Origin: Bradyrhizobium niftali
Lineage (GTDB): Bacteria; Pseudomonadota; Alphaproteobacteria; Rhizobiales; Xanthobacteraceae
Length of the DNA: 64,000 bases
Assembly (NCBI RefSeq): GCF_004571025.1
Contig: NZ_SPQT01000013.1
Location: 1-64,000 of the forward strand
Reading direction: 5' to 3'
The position numbers and the translations under genes are program-made. The notes beneath the pieces were generated by a model, which worked only from the letters and a program-made list of their open reading frames with translations, had not been told where the DNA came from and made no database searches. The first letter of the stretch is position 1, and the number at the start of each line of letters is the position of its first letter. Below are positions 34,245 through 50,045 of the stretch, in pieces.

Positions 34245-36806
34245 CTAGCACTTGGGCTGGTTCGGCGGGCACTTCTTGGCTGCCGCCGGCGGCGGGGCCG
34301 CGGGACGCGGCGGAGGTGCTGCCGGGCGCGGCGGCGGAGGCGCGACGGCCATCCGCGGTGGGGGCGGCGGTGGCGCCGGCCGGGCTACCGGCGGGGGCGG
34401 CGCAGGCCGGGCCATTGGCGGCGGCGCCGGTCGCGCGGCCGCCACCGGCGGAGCGGGTCGCGGCGGCGGAGGTGCAGCCATCCTTGGCGGCGGCGCGGAC
34501 ACGTGCGGCGGAGGTGGCGGCGTGGGCCGCGCCACGGCCTGGGGTCGCGGGGGCGGTGCGGCTGGCCTGGCAGCCTGCGGCGGGGCCGGCGGGTGAGCCT
34601 GTGGCCTGATCGGCTCGCGCACAGCCGACGGAGGCGGCACGACCGGTTTTCCCGCGGCAGCGGGCGGCGGGCCGGCCGGCTCACGGGTTGCGGACTTGGC
34701 ACGATCGGCAGGCCCGGCCCCGGGCGGGGTCTGCGCGACCGGCGGCTTGGGCGGTTGGCCGGGCACAGCGGCCGGATTTGTCGTGGTGGGCGCAACGGTC
34801 GTCGGAGCGGCGGCCGTTGGCGCACCAGGATGGGGTGGCGGGGTTGTGCCGGGCGCAGCCGTAGTCGGCGCTCCCGGATGAGCCGGCGGCGTTACACCGG
34901 GAGCGGTCGCCGTCGGCAAGGGCCTGCCGCCCGGCAGAGTCCCTGCCCCTGCCGGCGGCGCCGGCGGCCCACCATGGGAGCCCGGAACCGGCAGCGTGTT
35001 GGCGGCAGGCAACTTGGTCTGCGGCGCGGCGTTCGGTGCTGTACCTGGGGCGTTCGGCGCCGCACCTGGCGAGGTACCTGGCAAGGTACTTGGCAAGGTA
35101 CTTGGCAAGGCACCCGGCAGCGCGCTTGGTCGCGCATTTGGTGCGACATTGGCGGGCGTGCCCGGCGGTGTCGCGGGTCTTGCCGTCGGCTGGATCGTCG
35201 CACTCGGCGGCATCGGCGCCTTGCCCTGCTGGATCAGAGCCGCGCGCTGCGCGACTGCCTGCGGCACGGCTGCACCGGCCGGATTGGCCCGGCCGGCAAC
35301 CGCCGGCGCGAGATTGCCCGGTCCGGCTCCTGCTCCCACTCCCGCGGCAGGTGCCGGCGGCCGGTTGATCACGGTGTTGATGACCGTGGTGTTATGGATG
35401 TTGTTGTAGATGATGTTGTTCGGCGGCGGCGCGACATAGACCGGTGGGCTGACGAACACCGGGATCGGCACGAACATTGGCTGCGGCAGCACGAACAGGC
35501 CGACCACGGGCAGCGGCGGCTCGAGCACGACGAAATCCGGCGGCGGCGGCGGCAGATAATAGACCGGCGGCGGCGGCGGCGGCGCGAAGCCAAAATCAGG
35601 ATCGCTGAAGTACAGCACGGGACGGTCGACATAGACCACCTCCTCCGGCGGCGGCGGCGGCACGTCATAGTCGATCATCGCGAAGCTCGGCGGCGGCTCG
35701 GCCGGCGCGGTGAGGATCGCGAGGCGCCGGCGCGCATCGCCTGCATGCGGGCCGCGCGGATAGCGGCGCAGATACGACCAATAGGCCTCCGGCGTGTCGG
35801 TGCGATAAGTCCGCCGCCAGGTGATCGCCTCGCGGCGCGCCGCAACGATCGCCATCACGCGCCTGGACATTGGATCGTTCGGATAGGCCGCGAGAAATTC
35901 CTCATAAGCCGGCAGCGTGTCGCGCTCCAGCGCGGCGGCGTAGGCGTCCTGCACGCCGAGATCGCGGATCGGCTTGTTGCGAATCGCGCCGACCTGGGCG
36001 GCCGAGGCCTCCGGCGGCGGCGCGTCGGGCCCGCGATCGAAGAACGAGAATGGCGCCGATATCTTCTGCTCGTTCCAGGGCACCTGTGCGCCCTTGGAGG
36101 CCTCGTTGACGCGCAGGCGGACGCGATCGAACACCTCAGGCAGCGGCAGGCCGCCGGTGCGGATCATCTCCGCCAGCGACTGCGCATAGATGCCGTAAGG
36201 CCCCGGGTCCTGTGGCGCCACCGTGCCGGGCGCGGCGTTGAAGGCGATCAGCATGTTCGGGTCGGGTTCGACCAGCGCCAGGCCGCTAGCGATCGGCTGG
36301 CCGCCCTCGATGAAGGGCTGCGCCCGCGCCGCGTCGAGCACGACGATGTTGGCCTTGAGTGGAATCGCCGCCAGCTGGCGCGCATAGTCGCTGATGCGCA
36401 GGGCCTCGGTCGGGATGTCGGTGTCGCGGGTGATGTTGGAATCGACCGGGATGAAATAGTTCTCGCCGGCAAGCTGCACGCCATAGCCGGCGAGATAGAC
36501 CATCGCGACGGTGCCCGGGCCGGAGGCCTGCGCCTTCTGGATGAAATCGCGAAAGCTCTTGCGCAGCGTGTCGCCGTCGAGATCGCGCGCGCCGACGACG
36601 TCGAACCCCGCCGCCTGCAGCGTCTGCGCGATCAGGCCGGCATCGTTCGCGGTCGTCGCCAGCGGCGACTTGGCATAGGCGCCGTTGCCGACCACGAGCG
36701 CGATGCGCTTTTCCTGCTGCTGCGCGCGCGCCGGATCGGGCGCGCCCGCGGCAAGGACCGCGATCGGCAGAAGAAGGCAGATGAAGATTCTGAGCGTCCC
36801 ACGCAT
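34245..36806 (-). CDS. Secreted pseudo-caspase with proline-rich tail
   Basis: An 853-residue exported protein: signal peptide (residues 1-28, ends ARAQ), a caspase p20-like domain (about 34-250), a helical linker with TPR-like character (about 300-385) and a tail of about 450 residues dominated by Pro, Ala, Val and Gly. In active orthocaspases the catalytic His lies in a GHG motif and Cys in DACR. Here the corresponding segments read LAGYGVQ (Tyr108) and VLDAARAQ (Ala160), so both catalytic residues are replaced. The fold is otherwise recognisable (RIALVVGNGAY, NYFIPVD). It is probably a non-proteolytic binding or scaffold protein of the periplasm or cell surface; the tail could span peptidoglycan. 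The chain ends in CPPNQPKC, two cysteines that may pair. Confidence 0.85.
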   Translation of the reverse strand: MRGTLRIFICLLLPIAVLAAGAPDPARAQQQEKRIALVVGNGAYAKSPLATTANDAGLIAQTLQAAGFDVVGARDLDGDTLRKSFRDFIQKAQASGPGTVAMVYLAGYGVQLAGENYFIPVDSNITRDTDIPTEALRISDYARQLAAIPLKANIVVLDAARAQPFIEGGQPIASGLALVEPDPNMLIAFNAAPGTVAPQDPGPYGIYAQSLAEMIRTGGLPLPEVFDRVRLRVNEASKGAQVPWNEQKISAPFSFFDRGPDAPPPEASAAQVGAIRNKPIRDLGVQDAYAAALERDTLPAYEEFLAAYPNDPMSRRVMAIVAARREAITWRRTYRTDTPEAYWSYLRRYPRGPHAGDARRRLAILTAPAEPPPSFAMIDYDVPPPPPEEVVYVDRPVLYFSDPDFGFAPPPPPPVYYLPPPPPDFVVLEPPLPVVGLFVLPQPMFVPIPVFVSPPVYVAPPPNNIIYNNIHNTTVINTVINRPPAPAAGVGAGAGPGNLAPAVAGRANPAGAAVPQAVAQRAALIQQGKAPMPPSATIQPTARPATPPGTPANVAPNARPSALPGALPSTLPSTLPGTSPGAAPNAPGTAPNAAPQTKLPAANTLPVPGSHGGPPAPPAGAGTLPGGRPLPTATAPGVTPPAHPGAPTTAAPGTTPPPHPGAPTAAAPTTVAPTTTNPAAVPGQPPKPPVAQTPPGAGPADRAKSATREPAGPPPAAAGKPVVPPPSAVREPIRPQAHPPAPPQAARPAAPPPRPQAVARPTPPPPPHVSAPPPRMAAPPPPRPAPPVAAARPAPPPMARPAPPPPVARPAPPPPPPRMAVAPPPPRPAAPPPRPAAPPPAAAKKCPPNQPKC
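35068..35115. repeat. 12-bp tandem repeat within the pseudo-caspase gene
   Basis: About four copies of a GGCAAGGTACTT-like unit encode the S-T-L-P / G-x-x-P tetrapeptide repeats in the tail. Such units can change copy number by slippage without breaking frame. Confidence 0.6.
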
Positions 36807-36937
36807 GGCTTGCCTAACCGCTTTTGTTGTTGAGGTGCCGCCGCGCATCAGACGCGCGGCCAGCTGAATGGCGCTTGAACGAAAAGCTTGGATTGAGGCG
36901 GTGGCATGGCCACGCCGTCGGCGGCGTCAGCCCCGCG

Positions 36938-37678
36938 TCAGCCTTGCGCAATCAGCTCGACCGTTCCCGTCGTGAGCCGGTAGATGCCGCCGACGACCTT
37001 CAGCTTGCCCTGTTCCACGGCCGCATTGAGGATCGGCGCGGCCGATTTCAGCTTGGCGACGTTGTCGATCACGTTCTGCCGGATCGCATTGTTGAGCACG
37101 TCCCCGCCCTGCTGCATCGCAGCTTTTGCGGCGTGCGCGATCGCATCGACGAGCGAGGGGATGTGGCCGGGCGGCGACGTGTTGTCCTTGATCGCCTTCA
37201 GAGCCGCATCGACCGCGCCGCAGCTGTCATGGCCGAGCACGAGGATCAGCGGCGCATTGAGCACGGCGACCGCATATTCCATGCTGGCGATGGTCTCGGT
37301 ACCGGCAAAGTTTCCGGCCACGCGGCAGACGAACAGATCGCCGCGACCGGTGTCGAAGGCATATTCAGGCGCGATGCGCGAGTCGGCGCAGCTCAGCACG
37401 GCCGCGAACGGGTTCTGGCCGCCGGCCAGCGCCTCGCGCTCATGCTTGAAATCGTGCCGCCGCGACACGCCTTCGACATAACGGACGTTGCCCTCCATCA
37501 GCCGCTTCAACGCTGCGTCTGGCGACAGCACGTTCTGCGGCTTGGGCGGAGCCTTGGTCTCCTTGGCAAGGGCGACGCCGCCCAGGGCAAGCCCGAGCGC
37601 CGAGACCGTCAGATGGATGAGCGATCTCCGCGAAGGGCCGATGTGGACGTCGCGATCACCGCCGCAATTCTCGCACAT
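36938..37678 (-). CDS. Beta-carbonic anhydrase, probably Tat-exported
   Basis: Interconverts CO2 and bicarbonate. The 246-residue protein has zinc ligands Cys97 (SCADSR), His150 and Cys153 (GHDSCGA), with the Asp-Arg pair in CADSR, all as in the family. An N-terminal stretch before residue 40 (PSRRSLIHLTVSALGLALGGVALA) has the S-R-R-x-h-h pattern of a twin-arginine signal. The MCENCGG start before it adds two more cysteines. Export makes it a periplasmic enzyme, unlike the usual cytoplasmic beta forms. Family members with such leaders are known in Gram-negatives. It lies 59 bp downstream of the lipoprotein gene. Confidence 0.88.
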   Translation of the reverse strand: MCENCGGDRDVHIGPSRRSLIHLTVSALGLALGGVALAKETKAPPKPQNVLSPDAALKRLMEGNVRYVEGVSRRHDFKHEREALAGGQNPFAAVLSCADSRIAPEYAFDTGRGDLFVCRVAGNFAGTETIASMEYAVAVLNAPLILVLGHDSCGAVDAALKAIKDNTSPPGHIPSLVDAIAHAAKAAMQQGGDVLNNAIRQNVIDNVAKLKSAAPILNAAVEQGKLKVVGGIYRLTTGTVELIAQG

Positions 37679-47665: not shown

Positions 47666-48259
47666 TCAATACATGCATGCTGATGAAATCAGCACTGTGA
47701 ACATGTCGACGTCGAACTCATTCTCCAAGCTAAGTCCGAACCGCTCTAACCATTTATCCTGAGCCAGGTAGGCCAACTTCTCTCGCGCCTGAGGGCAATC
47801 AAATTTGAGCTTTCCAACATTCTGAAGGTGATGGACCATTTCGTGTACCAGGACCGATTGGTCGGTCGGCGAAGTGCCGCCCCAATCATCAGGAAGCAGG
47901 ATCGTTCTCGTCTCGTTGTCGTAAAGTGCGACAACCTCGCGCCGAGCTAGTTGCCCATCGCTTTCCATGAAGCCTTGCGAAGAAGTACGGTCCCTCGCAC
48001 GCAACCTCGCAAGCTCCATCTTCGATGCAAATTCAACGACGGGACGCTGTTTGATGGCAGGCAGGTCGAAATTCGATGAGAGCCAAGTCACAATGTCATC
48101 CAACAGGGCTTCCGTAAGTTGAGCTGTATCAGAATGCAACGAAACCGAACGCGACTCGGCGGACGCGCTGCGCTCCAAAGCATATCCGCGATGGGCTTTC
48201 GTGGATGTGGCTAACGTTAGGGAGACTATCGCCGCGACCAAGAGGAATTGCTTGAACAT
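47666..48259 (-). CDS. Secreted HExxH putative metalloprotease (DUF6647-like)
   Basis: A 197-residue protein with a signal peptide (MFKQFLLVAAIVSLTLATSTKA) and a zinc-binding HEMVHH at residues 139-144. YDNETRTILLPDDWG precedes it, as in small minigluzincin-like proteins, and a cysteine pair flanks the C-terminal helices (FDCPQAREKLAYLAQDKW, SSACMY). The family, which I recall as DUF6647, is uncharacterised. Codon and base use is visibly AT-richer than in the surrounding genes, which suggests transfer. It has its own AGAGG ribosome-binding site. Confidence 0.75.
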   Translation of the reverse strand: MFKQFLLVAAIVSLTLATSTKAHRGYALERSASAESRSVSLHSDTAQLTEALLDDIVTWLSSNFDLPAIKQRPVVEFASKMELARLRARDRTSSQGFMESDGQLARREVVALYDNETRTILLPDDWGGTSPTDQSVLVHEMVHHLQNVGKLKFDCPQAREKLAYLAQDKWLERFGLSLENEFDVDMFTVLISSACMY

Positions 48260-48430
48260 GATCCTCTCCTCAGAGGCTGTTCGAAAAAGAAACTCTTCAA
48301 AAAATCAGTCGGCAGTTAAACAGCTGGAACATAGCATTCGCCTGGCGACGTCGTTGTGAACCCATTCACACCCAAAGAACTCACAACGCCGCTGTCAGCG
48401 CTCGCCTGCCCGAAACTCGGTTGCTCGTCT

Positions 48431-49174
48431 TCATGGCGGCGGCAGAGCGGCCGCGATTCCGCCGCTGAGGTCAGGCGGCCGCACGAAGAGAAGACGGGAG
48501 GTCGCCGGTATTTCCGCGTCATCCCTGCCGTCCTGGCCGATCAGGATCAATCCCGCTCCGCCATTCGCCACATTGAGAACCACCGGCCCTCCGCTCCACG
48601 TCTTGATTGGCTGCATTCCCACGATGAGGAATTCGCCCATGGGCTGATCAAGATATTGAAGGCGCAATTGCGGACCGACCTCCGCTGCCGCAAGTTCAAA
48701 GCCGAGTTGCCGGGCTCGCGCGTAAATGACGGCCAGAGGCACGCTATCGGCTTTAAAGCCAAGCTCGACCGCGGATACCGCCACAAGCTCTACGTCCATC
48801 TTGCTGGAACTGACGGTGAAGGCCGGTCGAGCGAGAACTTCCGCGGCCAGCCCGCCGATACTGCAACCGACGGAATCCAATGCATCGCGCAACGCAACGG
48901 AGTTGCCAAAGGTACCGACGGCAATCGTCTTCCATGTCGGCACATCGCGGGCGGACCCGATGAGTTTTTGCGGCAAATCAACTGCGCGAACTTTGCCGAG
49001 CTTCAGTTGATTCTGTAAGACGTCGCGCGCCGAGCATTGTCCCCACGCCTTGGGCGTGACCTGAAACAAGGAAGCGGCACAGAGCAATGCAACCATCAAG
49101 CAATGGCTGCCCCACCTCGCGTTCAGATGGTGATGTGGTGCGGCGCGATCCGCTTGGCTTGTCAGAATGCACAT
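48431..49174 (-). CDS. Secreted protein of unknown family
   Basis: A 247-residue protein. From the ATG at 49174 a polar lead precedes a hydrophobic stretch; from the ATG at 49096 it begins MVALLCAASLFQVTPKAWGQC, a good signal peptide, so the shorter start is possible. The mature part holds WKTIAVGTFGN-x-x-ALRDALDSVGC-x-IGGLA, ARPAFTVS, ELGF and GPQLRLQYLDQPMGEFLIVGMQPI. I recall these as conserved in a widespread family of unknown function that usually lacks a signal peptide. No catalytic motif is visible. Confidence 0.65.
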   Translation of the reverse strand: MCILTSQADRAAPHHHLNARWGSHCLMVALLCAASLFQVTPKAWGQCSARDVLQNQLKLGKVRAVDLPQKLIGSARDVPTWKTIAVGTFGNSVALRDALDSVGCSIGGLAAEVLARPAFTVSSSKMDVELVAVSAVELGFKADSVPLAVIYARARQLGFELAAAEVGPQLRLQYLDQPMGEFLIVGMQPIKTWSGGPVVLNVANGGAGLILIGQDGRDDAEIPATSRLLFVRPPDLSGGIAAALPPP

Positions 49175-49745
49175 GTCGAATATCGACTTGTTGCAAAATT
49201 CAACTGAAAAGAACCCGCCTCCGAGTCAATGGGAAGAACGGAGGCCAATGAAAAACATCGTCCGACCGAGCTCAAAAGGGGAGCCGGAGGCGGGGCACTA
49301 TTGGCTCAAGTATTCCAATTTCAAATGAACGGGCGGCGGTCCGTAAGCCCGATCGCTCGTCGCATCAAACCGAAAACGGAATGACGTGCTGAAACGTAGC
49401 ACCACGAGTCCCTCGGTACAATCAGCAACTCCGCCCACCAGCGTGCATAGCGCGCTTCACCACGATCGCGACGTTCGAACAACCACTCTGGCACTCGAAG
49501 TTGCGCTACGTGGGTTCAGCAAATCTCAGGTTCGCCGCGAACACCGCTCCGCGCGAATACTTGCTTGCCAGTGACGGTGCGCCGCCATCCGCCGAGAAAC
49601 GGCAGAGTTGCTTCCGCTTGCGAAGACTGAACCAGGATCGCGCCGCTGAAGACGAACCTTCATCGAGATTGAACAGGAGGTTCGCTTCTCGAACGTTGCT
49701 CGATACATGCCTCATGGACATTTTACACAACTATGGAGGTATCCC
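49175..49745. other. 571-bp region with little coding evidence
   Basis: Apart from a possible 26-residue gene at 49248, this AT-richer stretch holds no frame with convincing codon use, no tRNA and no clear terminator. Short open frames on both strands look random. It may be the decayed remains of a larger gene. Confidence 0.5.
49248..49328 (+). CDS. Candidate 26-aa peptide
   Basis: The frame encodes MKNIVRPSSKGEPEAGHYW and then LKYSNFK. ACGGAGG sits five bases before the ATG, the strongest ribosome-binding site in the interval. There is no membrane helix. Only the binding site supports expression. Confidence 0.35.
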   Translation: MKNIVRPSSKGEPEAGHYWLKYSNFK

Positions 49746-50045
49746 ATGCCGATCGTCCAATTTACTCGCTTCAAAACCGACAAGTCCGAGGAAATGGTCC
49801 AGATCATCAGGCAGGCGAAGAAAATCTTTGAAAAACACGGTGCCGAATTTCTTCGGCTCTCCCGTTTCCACACCGGTCCCTGGGCAGGAGAGTTGCTCGT
49901 TACGACGCGCTACTCCAGCTGGGAAGTTTACGGCAAGGTGCAGGAGGCCGTGTCAAAGGATCCGGAGTTTGCGCAGGTGCAGGCTGACGGAATGAAGATT
50001 GCCGAGCTCCAGGGCCGTAACATCGCCGTTAGCATCGATCTCTAG
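49746..50045 (+). CDS. Small dimeric alpha/beta-barrel-like protein (DUF6854-like)
   Basis: A 99-residue protein with the strand-helix-strand pattern of ABM-type monooxygenase relatives: PIVQFTRFKTD, a helix with QIIRQAKKIFEKHGAE, strands FLRLSRFHTGP and ELLVTTRYSSWEVYGK. These features fit DUF6854 as I remember it. No catalytic activity is established for the family. TGGAGG lies seven bases before the ATG, so I start it at 49746. It is cytoplasmic and probably a single-gene unit. Confidence 0.75.
   Translation: MPIVQFTRFKTDKSEEMVQIIRQAKKIFEKHGAEFLRLSRFHTGPWAGELLVTTRYSSWEVYGKVQEAVSKDPEFAQVQADGMKIAELQGRNIAVSIDL

Follow-up and report, generated by a model that had tools for sequence, protein, structure and literature searches.

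In the main-text sections of Klemencic et al. (2019; PMC6426788), pseudo-orthocaspases are bacterial proteins with a p20 domain in which one or both catalytic residues are substituted, and rhizobial Tyr-Ala pseudo-orthocaspases with long C-termini are described among them. The same sections confine alphaproteobacterial pseudo-variants to Rhizobiales, Rhodobacterales and Rhodospirillales, and state that pseudo-variants retain the two Asp residues of the pocket. Ser and Tyr are given as the commonest substitutions in the text sections of Asplund-Samuelsson et al. (2012; PMC3501461). Among the papers retrieved on pseudo-orthocaspases, judged by titles and abstract openings, the one with functional data concerns SyOC (PMC7889975). 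In the retrieved portions of rhizobial work on secreted proteins and on CtpA, the word "caspase" occurred in reference lists only, and an excerpted table of the NnrR regulon lists a "caspase family protein" (bll3611). A previous sequence-only reading of this gene had placed its product in a little-studied class, which is fair as regards function; the class itself was catalogued in 2019, according to the sections of PMC6426788.

The gene lies in a 64,000-nucleotide stretch of Bradyrhizobium niftali DNA, which is referred to here as the window, and the open reading frame that had been assigned to its minus strand at 34245-36806 was found there. Translation from an upstream ATG at 36848 (-) would give a product of 867 aa. 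The features of the gene and of its predicted product are as follows:

34245..36806, minus strand: pseudo-caspase gene (open reading frame; 853 aa from the inner ATG)
36720..36806, minus strand: signal-peptide-like N-terminus, residues 1-29 (hydrophobic core and AxA before Gln, read from the sequence)
36051..36710, minus strand: caspase domain, residues 33-252 (PF00656, E=4.3e-37; AlphaFold model resembling MALT1)
36642..36644, minus strand: Asp55, putative S1-pocket acid (Asp in 49/50 dead, 12/12 intact and 2/2 Phe-Ser rows)
36483..36485, minus strand: Tyr108, replacing the catalytic His (alignment with MALT1 and with the genome's own His-Cys paralogues)
36333..36335, minus strand: Asp158, putative second S1-pocket acid (Asp in 50/50, 12/12 and 2/2 of the same rows)
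36327..36329, minus strand: Ala160, replacing the catalytic Cys (Ala in 49/50 clade rows and Gly in 1; Cys in 12/12 intact rows)
35715..35954, minus strand: TPR-like helical module, residues 285-364 (conservation; pLDDT 92; weak YfiO/TPR matches in some relatives)
35358..35696, minus strand: conserved Pro/aromatic segment, about residues 371-483 (conservation, dN/dS)
34272..35357, minus strand: variable Pro/Ala-rich linker, about residues 484-845 (composition; poorly conserved, gappy)
34248..34271, minus strand: cysteine pair CPPNQPKC, residues 846-853 (most complete relatives carry C-x(3-9)-C close to their end)

An antisense open reading frame (34503-36833, plus strand, 776 aa) is probably a high-GC mirror of the gene rather than a gene. 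A promoter scan returned zero promoter-like sites on the strand of the pseudo-caspase gene, and a terminator-like site was located past its stop codon (34074-34057), 2 such sites being found against 1.7 expected. The 2-kb step of lowest GC in the window (0.565) is at 48001-50000.

The window protein matched PF00656 with 128.4 bits (cut-off 21.4), its sole Pfam match at E<=1, and NCBIfam returned a caspase match below threshold (23.6 vs 140 bits) and one chance-level match. The AlphaFold model, which covers residues 29-483 and was built from 39 sequences (pLDDT 77.9, pTM 0.83), had MALT1 and then caspases as its nearest solved structures (Foldseek E 4e-12), with a Z of 23.4 and an rmsd of 2.8 A over 205 residues against MALT1. 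The structure prediction proposed by the sequence-only reading therefore returned a caspase fold, and profile score and predicted fold together place the protein in the caspase-fold superfamily. Local motifs revealed the fate of the catalytic residues: in the alignment with MALT1 its His motif falls on LAGYGVQ and its Cys motif on LDAAR, and the genome's own intact paralogues read AGHG and LDACR at these places, which bears out the earlier claim of a His to Tyr and a Cys to Ala replacement; within LDAAR it is the second Ala, residue 160, that occupies the Cys column. A search for alternative catalytic residues returned none, since the translation of residues 31-252 holds zero His and zero Cys, and a displaced dyad is thus impossible within the domain. 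With Tyr108 and Ala160 at the positions of the His-Cys dyad of an active C14 peptidase, the product is predicted not to be one, and on these residues it is a pseudo-orthocaspase under the p20 definition; as to a p10 domain of metacaspase type, which that class lacks, the PF00656 and MALT1 matches were seen to cover the whole caspase domain.

Both substitutions were conserved among homologues. Dyads were counted in 147 fetched loci (identity at least 44%; the copy in the window is among them, and some genes occur in duplicate), a count that leans to its own kind because the loci were found by likeness to the window protein, and comprised YA in 129 loci, HA in 10, and LA, QA, RA and YG in 2 each. 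The Cys column was Ala in 145/147 loci and Gly in 2/147, and the His column was Tyr in 131/147, indicating that Cys to Ala is a nearly fixed loss and that the His column is just mostly Tyr. The aligned caspase body was free of cysteine in 136/140 distinct relatives. Asp55 and Asp158 correspond to the metacaspase S1-pocket acids by our own mapping, and their conservation, which dead, intact and Phe-Ser rows share, would fit a kept pocket but may also reflect a structural role.

Phylogenetic analysis of 64 hand-picked rows, from which both catalytic columns were removed, placed 50/50 rows with Ala or Gly in one clade (100/99), within which the YA, HA, QA, RA, LA and YG forms fall together. The tree program warned of long branches, mostly those of intact and Phe-Ser rows, and the outgroup did not form one side of a branch. 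The intact L001/L004 group neighbours the dead clade (joining branch 98/75, not starred), and the Phe-Ser paralogues L008 and L013 represent a separate loss. Counted on all 64 rows of the tree, the intact ones too, 3 changes are needed in the Cys column and 10 in the His column. These results suggest that the loss of the dyad in rhizobial caspases was one old event, under strong selection.

The extension that follows the domain had been described as a 450-residue proline-rich tail. An extension with a proline-rich part is present, but it is not uniform and consists of a helical module, a Pro/aromatic segment, a linker and a cysteine pair, a division that is new with respect to the sections of earlier work; the main-text sections used here describe neither the module nor the Pro/aromatic segment nor the terminal cysteine pair for the YA type. 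In a full-length alignment of 87 rows (the window protein and loci from L054 on, complete, at least 50% identical and at least 650 aa long, some genes appearing twice under two locus ids), the mean majority frequency was 0.79 for residues 253-400 and the caspase domain alike, 0.66 for residues 401-520, 0.33 for 521-700, 0.44 for 701-830 and 0.59 for the last 23 residues. The module, modelled on its own, showed six helices with a mean pLDDT of 92, and 22/111 of its columns were invariant among 35 sequences. At E<=1, YfiO matched the modules of 5/35 relatives (best E 2.5e-05) and TPR_16 likewise 5/35, and the window protein's own module gave zero TPR profile matches. Against solved folds the best Foldseek E was 0.1 and the best Z 7.2, a value common for helical models according to the tool, with weak likeness to BamD and YbgF. 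Because of this weak resemblance and the lack of a TPR profile match of its own, the module is named TPR-like only. Several fold alignments of the longer model extend to model residue 429-440, where confidence is low to modest (10-residue means of 68 and 49), hinting that part of the Pro/aromatic segment may pack on the caspase domain.

Residues 484-853 are 33% Pro and 24% Ala. The terminal C-x(3-9)-C was found in 80/89 complete distinct proteins of at least 500 aa (51/140 incomplete or short ones were left out) and was absent from 9/89 (L058, L074, L077, L078, L092, L133, L137, L164 and L167), among which L137 retains one of the two cysteines and L058 and L092 have C-termini unlike the family that may be frame or assembly breaks. 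The window protein has just three cysteines: residue 10, which belongs to the signal-like part, and residues 846 and 853. At the other end, relatives with at least 50% identity and a match starting by residue 20 showed a hydrophobic stretch in 94/94 cases and a loose AxA-like pattern in 92/94, and from this signal-peptide-like start export is predicted, in line with the extracytoplasmic site of action that the sequence-only reading had suggested.

A close family member was detected at E<=1e-100 in 102/117 same-genus genomes, this genome included, and one further genome (G077) holds a split 66% copy in addition to the 102; the wording "close family member" is used because the matches mix the orthologue between dnaE and rpsB with a Bradyrhizobium group of ~68% identity located elsewhere. 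A family search at E<=1e-60 matched 91/248 genomes and 20/47 genera, and a longer profile at E<=1e-50 matched 80/297 genomes of the order and 18/289 of the class, many of these matches spanning the caspase domain only and being other caspases. Among the best 80 of 567 matches, named relatives came from Rhodopseudomonas, Nitrobacter, Afipia, Rhizobium, Mesorhizobium, Labrys, Methylobacterium and Microvirga. The same best 80 of 567 include a 60%-identical copy in a metagenome bin labelled Chloroflexi (L163), perhaps a mis-binned alphaproteobacterial contig.

Genomic context was compared at 35 loci of the Bradyrhizobium-Rhodopseudomonas-Nitrobacter-Afipia lineage (L094-L120, L122, L124, L127, L128, L130, L132, L133 and L135). 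The gene lies between dnaE and rpsB in 28/35 of them; dnaE was seen in 34/35 (not at L119), and in the 7/35 loci without rpsB the contig edge comes before its expected place. At further loci outside these 35, within the few kb available, dnaE was not seen at L057, L084 and L086, nor rpsB at L056 and L060, and neither gene adjoins members of the ~68%-identity group (e.g. L121, L062). Directly upstream of the pseudo-caspase gene in the window is a minus-strand gene (36938-37678), which we take to be beta-carbonic-anhydrase-like; such a gene lies in between at 20/35 loci, all Bradyrhizobium except one Bradyrhizobiaceae bin. At 8 loci outside the dnaE-rpsB lineage, inspected by eye, the neighbours looked unrelated and included no conserved candidate partner, so that an operon partner is unsupported.

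Selection was estimated from 150 random pairs drawn from 37 proteins of at least 75% identity (147 pairs usable for the linker and 123 for the signal-like part). Median dN/dS was 0.115 for the caspase domain, 0.132 for residues 276-372, 0.239 for 373-483, 0.303 for 484-840 and 0.478 for the signal-like part, and these values show strong purifying selection among close relatives. Purifying selection, the dnaE-rpsB synteny and a single clade keeping Ala argue against decay, and a pseudogene or sequencing artefact is ruled out by conservation and dN/dS. The earlier description of a retained non-enzymatic caspase is in accordance with these results, dyad loss being conserved across homologues and the caspase fold predicted. 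Broken copies, through assembly error or real loss, were observed at L081 (frame change near residue 205 of the match) and L112 (319-residue product).

The 9.79-Mb genome contains 23 PF00656 matches, namely 20 intact His-Cys proteins, one Tyr-Ala protein (the window gene) and two Phe-Ser proteins. The Phe-Ser dead caspases L008 and L013 are on contig C76, L008 being without a signal-like start, and on contig C61 three intact caspase genes (L015, L017 and L018) stand in a row within ~5 kb, L017 and L018 with equal profile scores. A hydrophobic N-terminus (12-residue mean of at least 1.8) was found in 15/19 scored intact paralogues. The nearest intact sister was present in 96/117 same-genus genomes (E<=1e-90). 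When counted by hand together with the dead gene (E<=1e-100), 86 of the 117 genomes held both, 16 the dead gene only, 10 the sister only and 5 neither, counts that depend on the thresholds and in which the sister-lacking G109 was placed by elimination; the 16 and 10 genomes with one gene indicate that the two are not strictly tied.

We give roughly even odds to the window protein being a vertically inherited, exported pseudo-orthocaspase that acts by binding, not cutting, as an envelope scaffold. The predicted fold, the loss of both catalytic residues, the single clade, purifying selection and module conservation support this reading, and to these we add, by inference, export, use of the pocket, a partner and a disulfide. 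The dead caspase domain may still recognise Arg- or Lys-containing segments, since it retains both of the acids that we equate with a pocket accepting basic side chains. The TPR-like module and the Pro/aromatic segment may dock a cell-envelope partner, and the long Pro/Ala stretch would be a flexible spacer. The terminal cysteine pair supplies every cysteine of the predicted mature protein and is likely to close a small hairpin by a disulfide, capping or anchoring that spacer. A more specific version is rather doubtful: that the cysteine-purged clade of the rhizobial order is a non-cutting envelope receptor in which basic or Pro-rich segments are held by the old pocket and the TPR-like module together, its disulfide-capped polyproline arm placing it in the periplasm. 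If true, the caspase fold would here serve in signalling or as a scaffold, with no tie to photosynthesis and no dependence on the nearest active sister.

An unlikely alternative is that the protein controls one of the active caspase paralogues, either by pairing with it in a heterodimer or as a substrate decoy, much as c-FLIP(L) does with caspase-8. The 20 intact paralogues, mostly with hydrophobic N-termini among those scored, and the intact state of the group nearest the dead clade favour it; the dead gene occurs without that sister in 16/117 genomes and the sister without it in 10/117, although other intact paralogues could serve as partners. We regard it as similarly improbable that the protein is a piece of envelope architecture whose important parts are the Pro-rich spacer and the cysteine pair, with the caspase domain serving only as a passive structural plug. 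The low complexity of the tail and the weak BamD and YbgF likeness of the module agree with such a role, but the linker is the fastest-evolving part after the signal-like one and the caspase domain the most constrained. That the protein is still an active hydrolase with another nucleophile, e.g. Tyr108, is very unlikely: Tyr is the majority residue (131/147), but several lineages have H, Q, R or L in that column with the protein still conserved, and the domain is without His and Cys.

Least probable of all, and only barely credible, is service to photosynthesis or its regulation, a role proposed for bacterial pseudo-orthocaspases in the sections of PMC6426788, where they are tied to anoxygenic photosynthesis. 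This genome has no match to the reaction-centre family PF00124 at E<=1e-20, and PF00124 was found in 10/117 same-genus genomes. A family member was present in 8/10 genomes with a reaction centre and in 94/107 without one (Fisher p 0.61; G077 scored as lacking it). Among the best 80 of 567 matches, relatives were recorded in Nitrobacter, Afipia, Mesorhizobium, Rhizobium and Microvirga, which are not known as phototrophs. By gene content, a photosynthesis link thus appears absent in this genus, and, taken with the co-occurrence of the nearest sister, neither idea alone explains retention of the gene. As regards anti-phage defence, 0 PADLOC families were matched at E<=1.

The loss of catalysis as one old event under strong selection suggests a lasting non-enzymatic role of the caspase fold in these bacteria, one set apart from photosynthesis, the published hypothesis. 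For the binding scaffold preferred here, the exact surfaces to mutate are the two pocket acids, the helical module and the terminal cysteine pair.

Among known systems, MALT1 paracaspase comes closest of the solved structures in both sequence and fold, although MALT1 is an active His-Cys enzyme; it is cytoplasmic and carries Ig domains. The genome's own His-Cys paralogues L001 and L004 are the nearest tree group and share a faint helical module (24-27% identity), but their dyad is intact, and the local match of L001 stops before the Pro/aromatic segment while that of L004 enters it weakly. SyOC of Synechocystis PCC 6803 is likewise a dead orthocaspase, whose deletion raises H2O2 tolerance according to the parts of PMC7889975 available; it differs in being cyanobacterial and YS-type, and is likened to the window protein by description alone. 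The closest counterparts are the YA/HA pseudo-orthocaspases of PMC6426788, described in its sections as Rhizobiales proteins with Tyr-Ala and a mostly prolonged C-terminus without identifiable domains; in the family analysed here, the C-terminus has four parts, the members form one clade and no photosynthesis link is apparent in the genus. The kind of protein is therefore already known, and what is new against the 2019 description, as far as its sections go (PMC6426788), is the failed photosynthesis test in this genus and a clearer anatomy.
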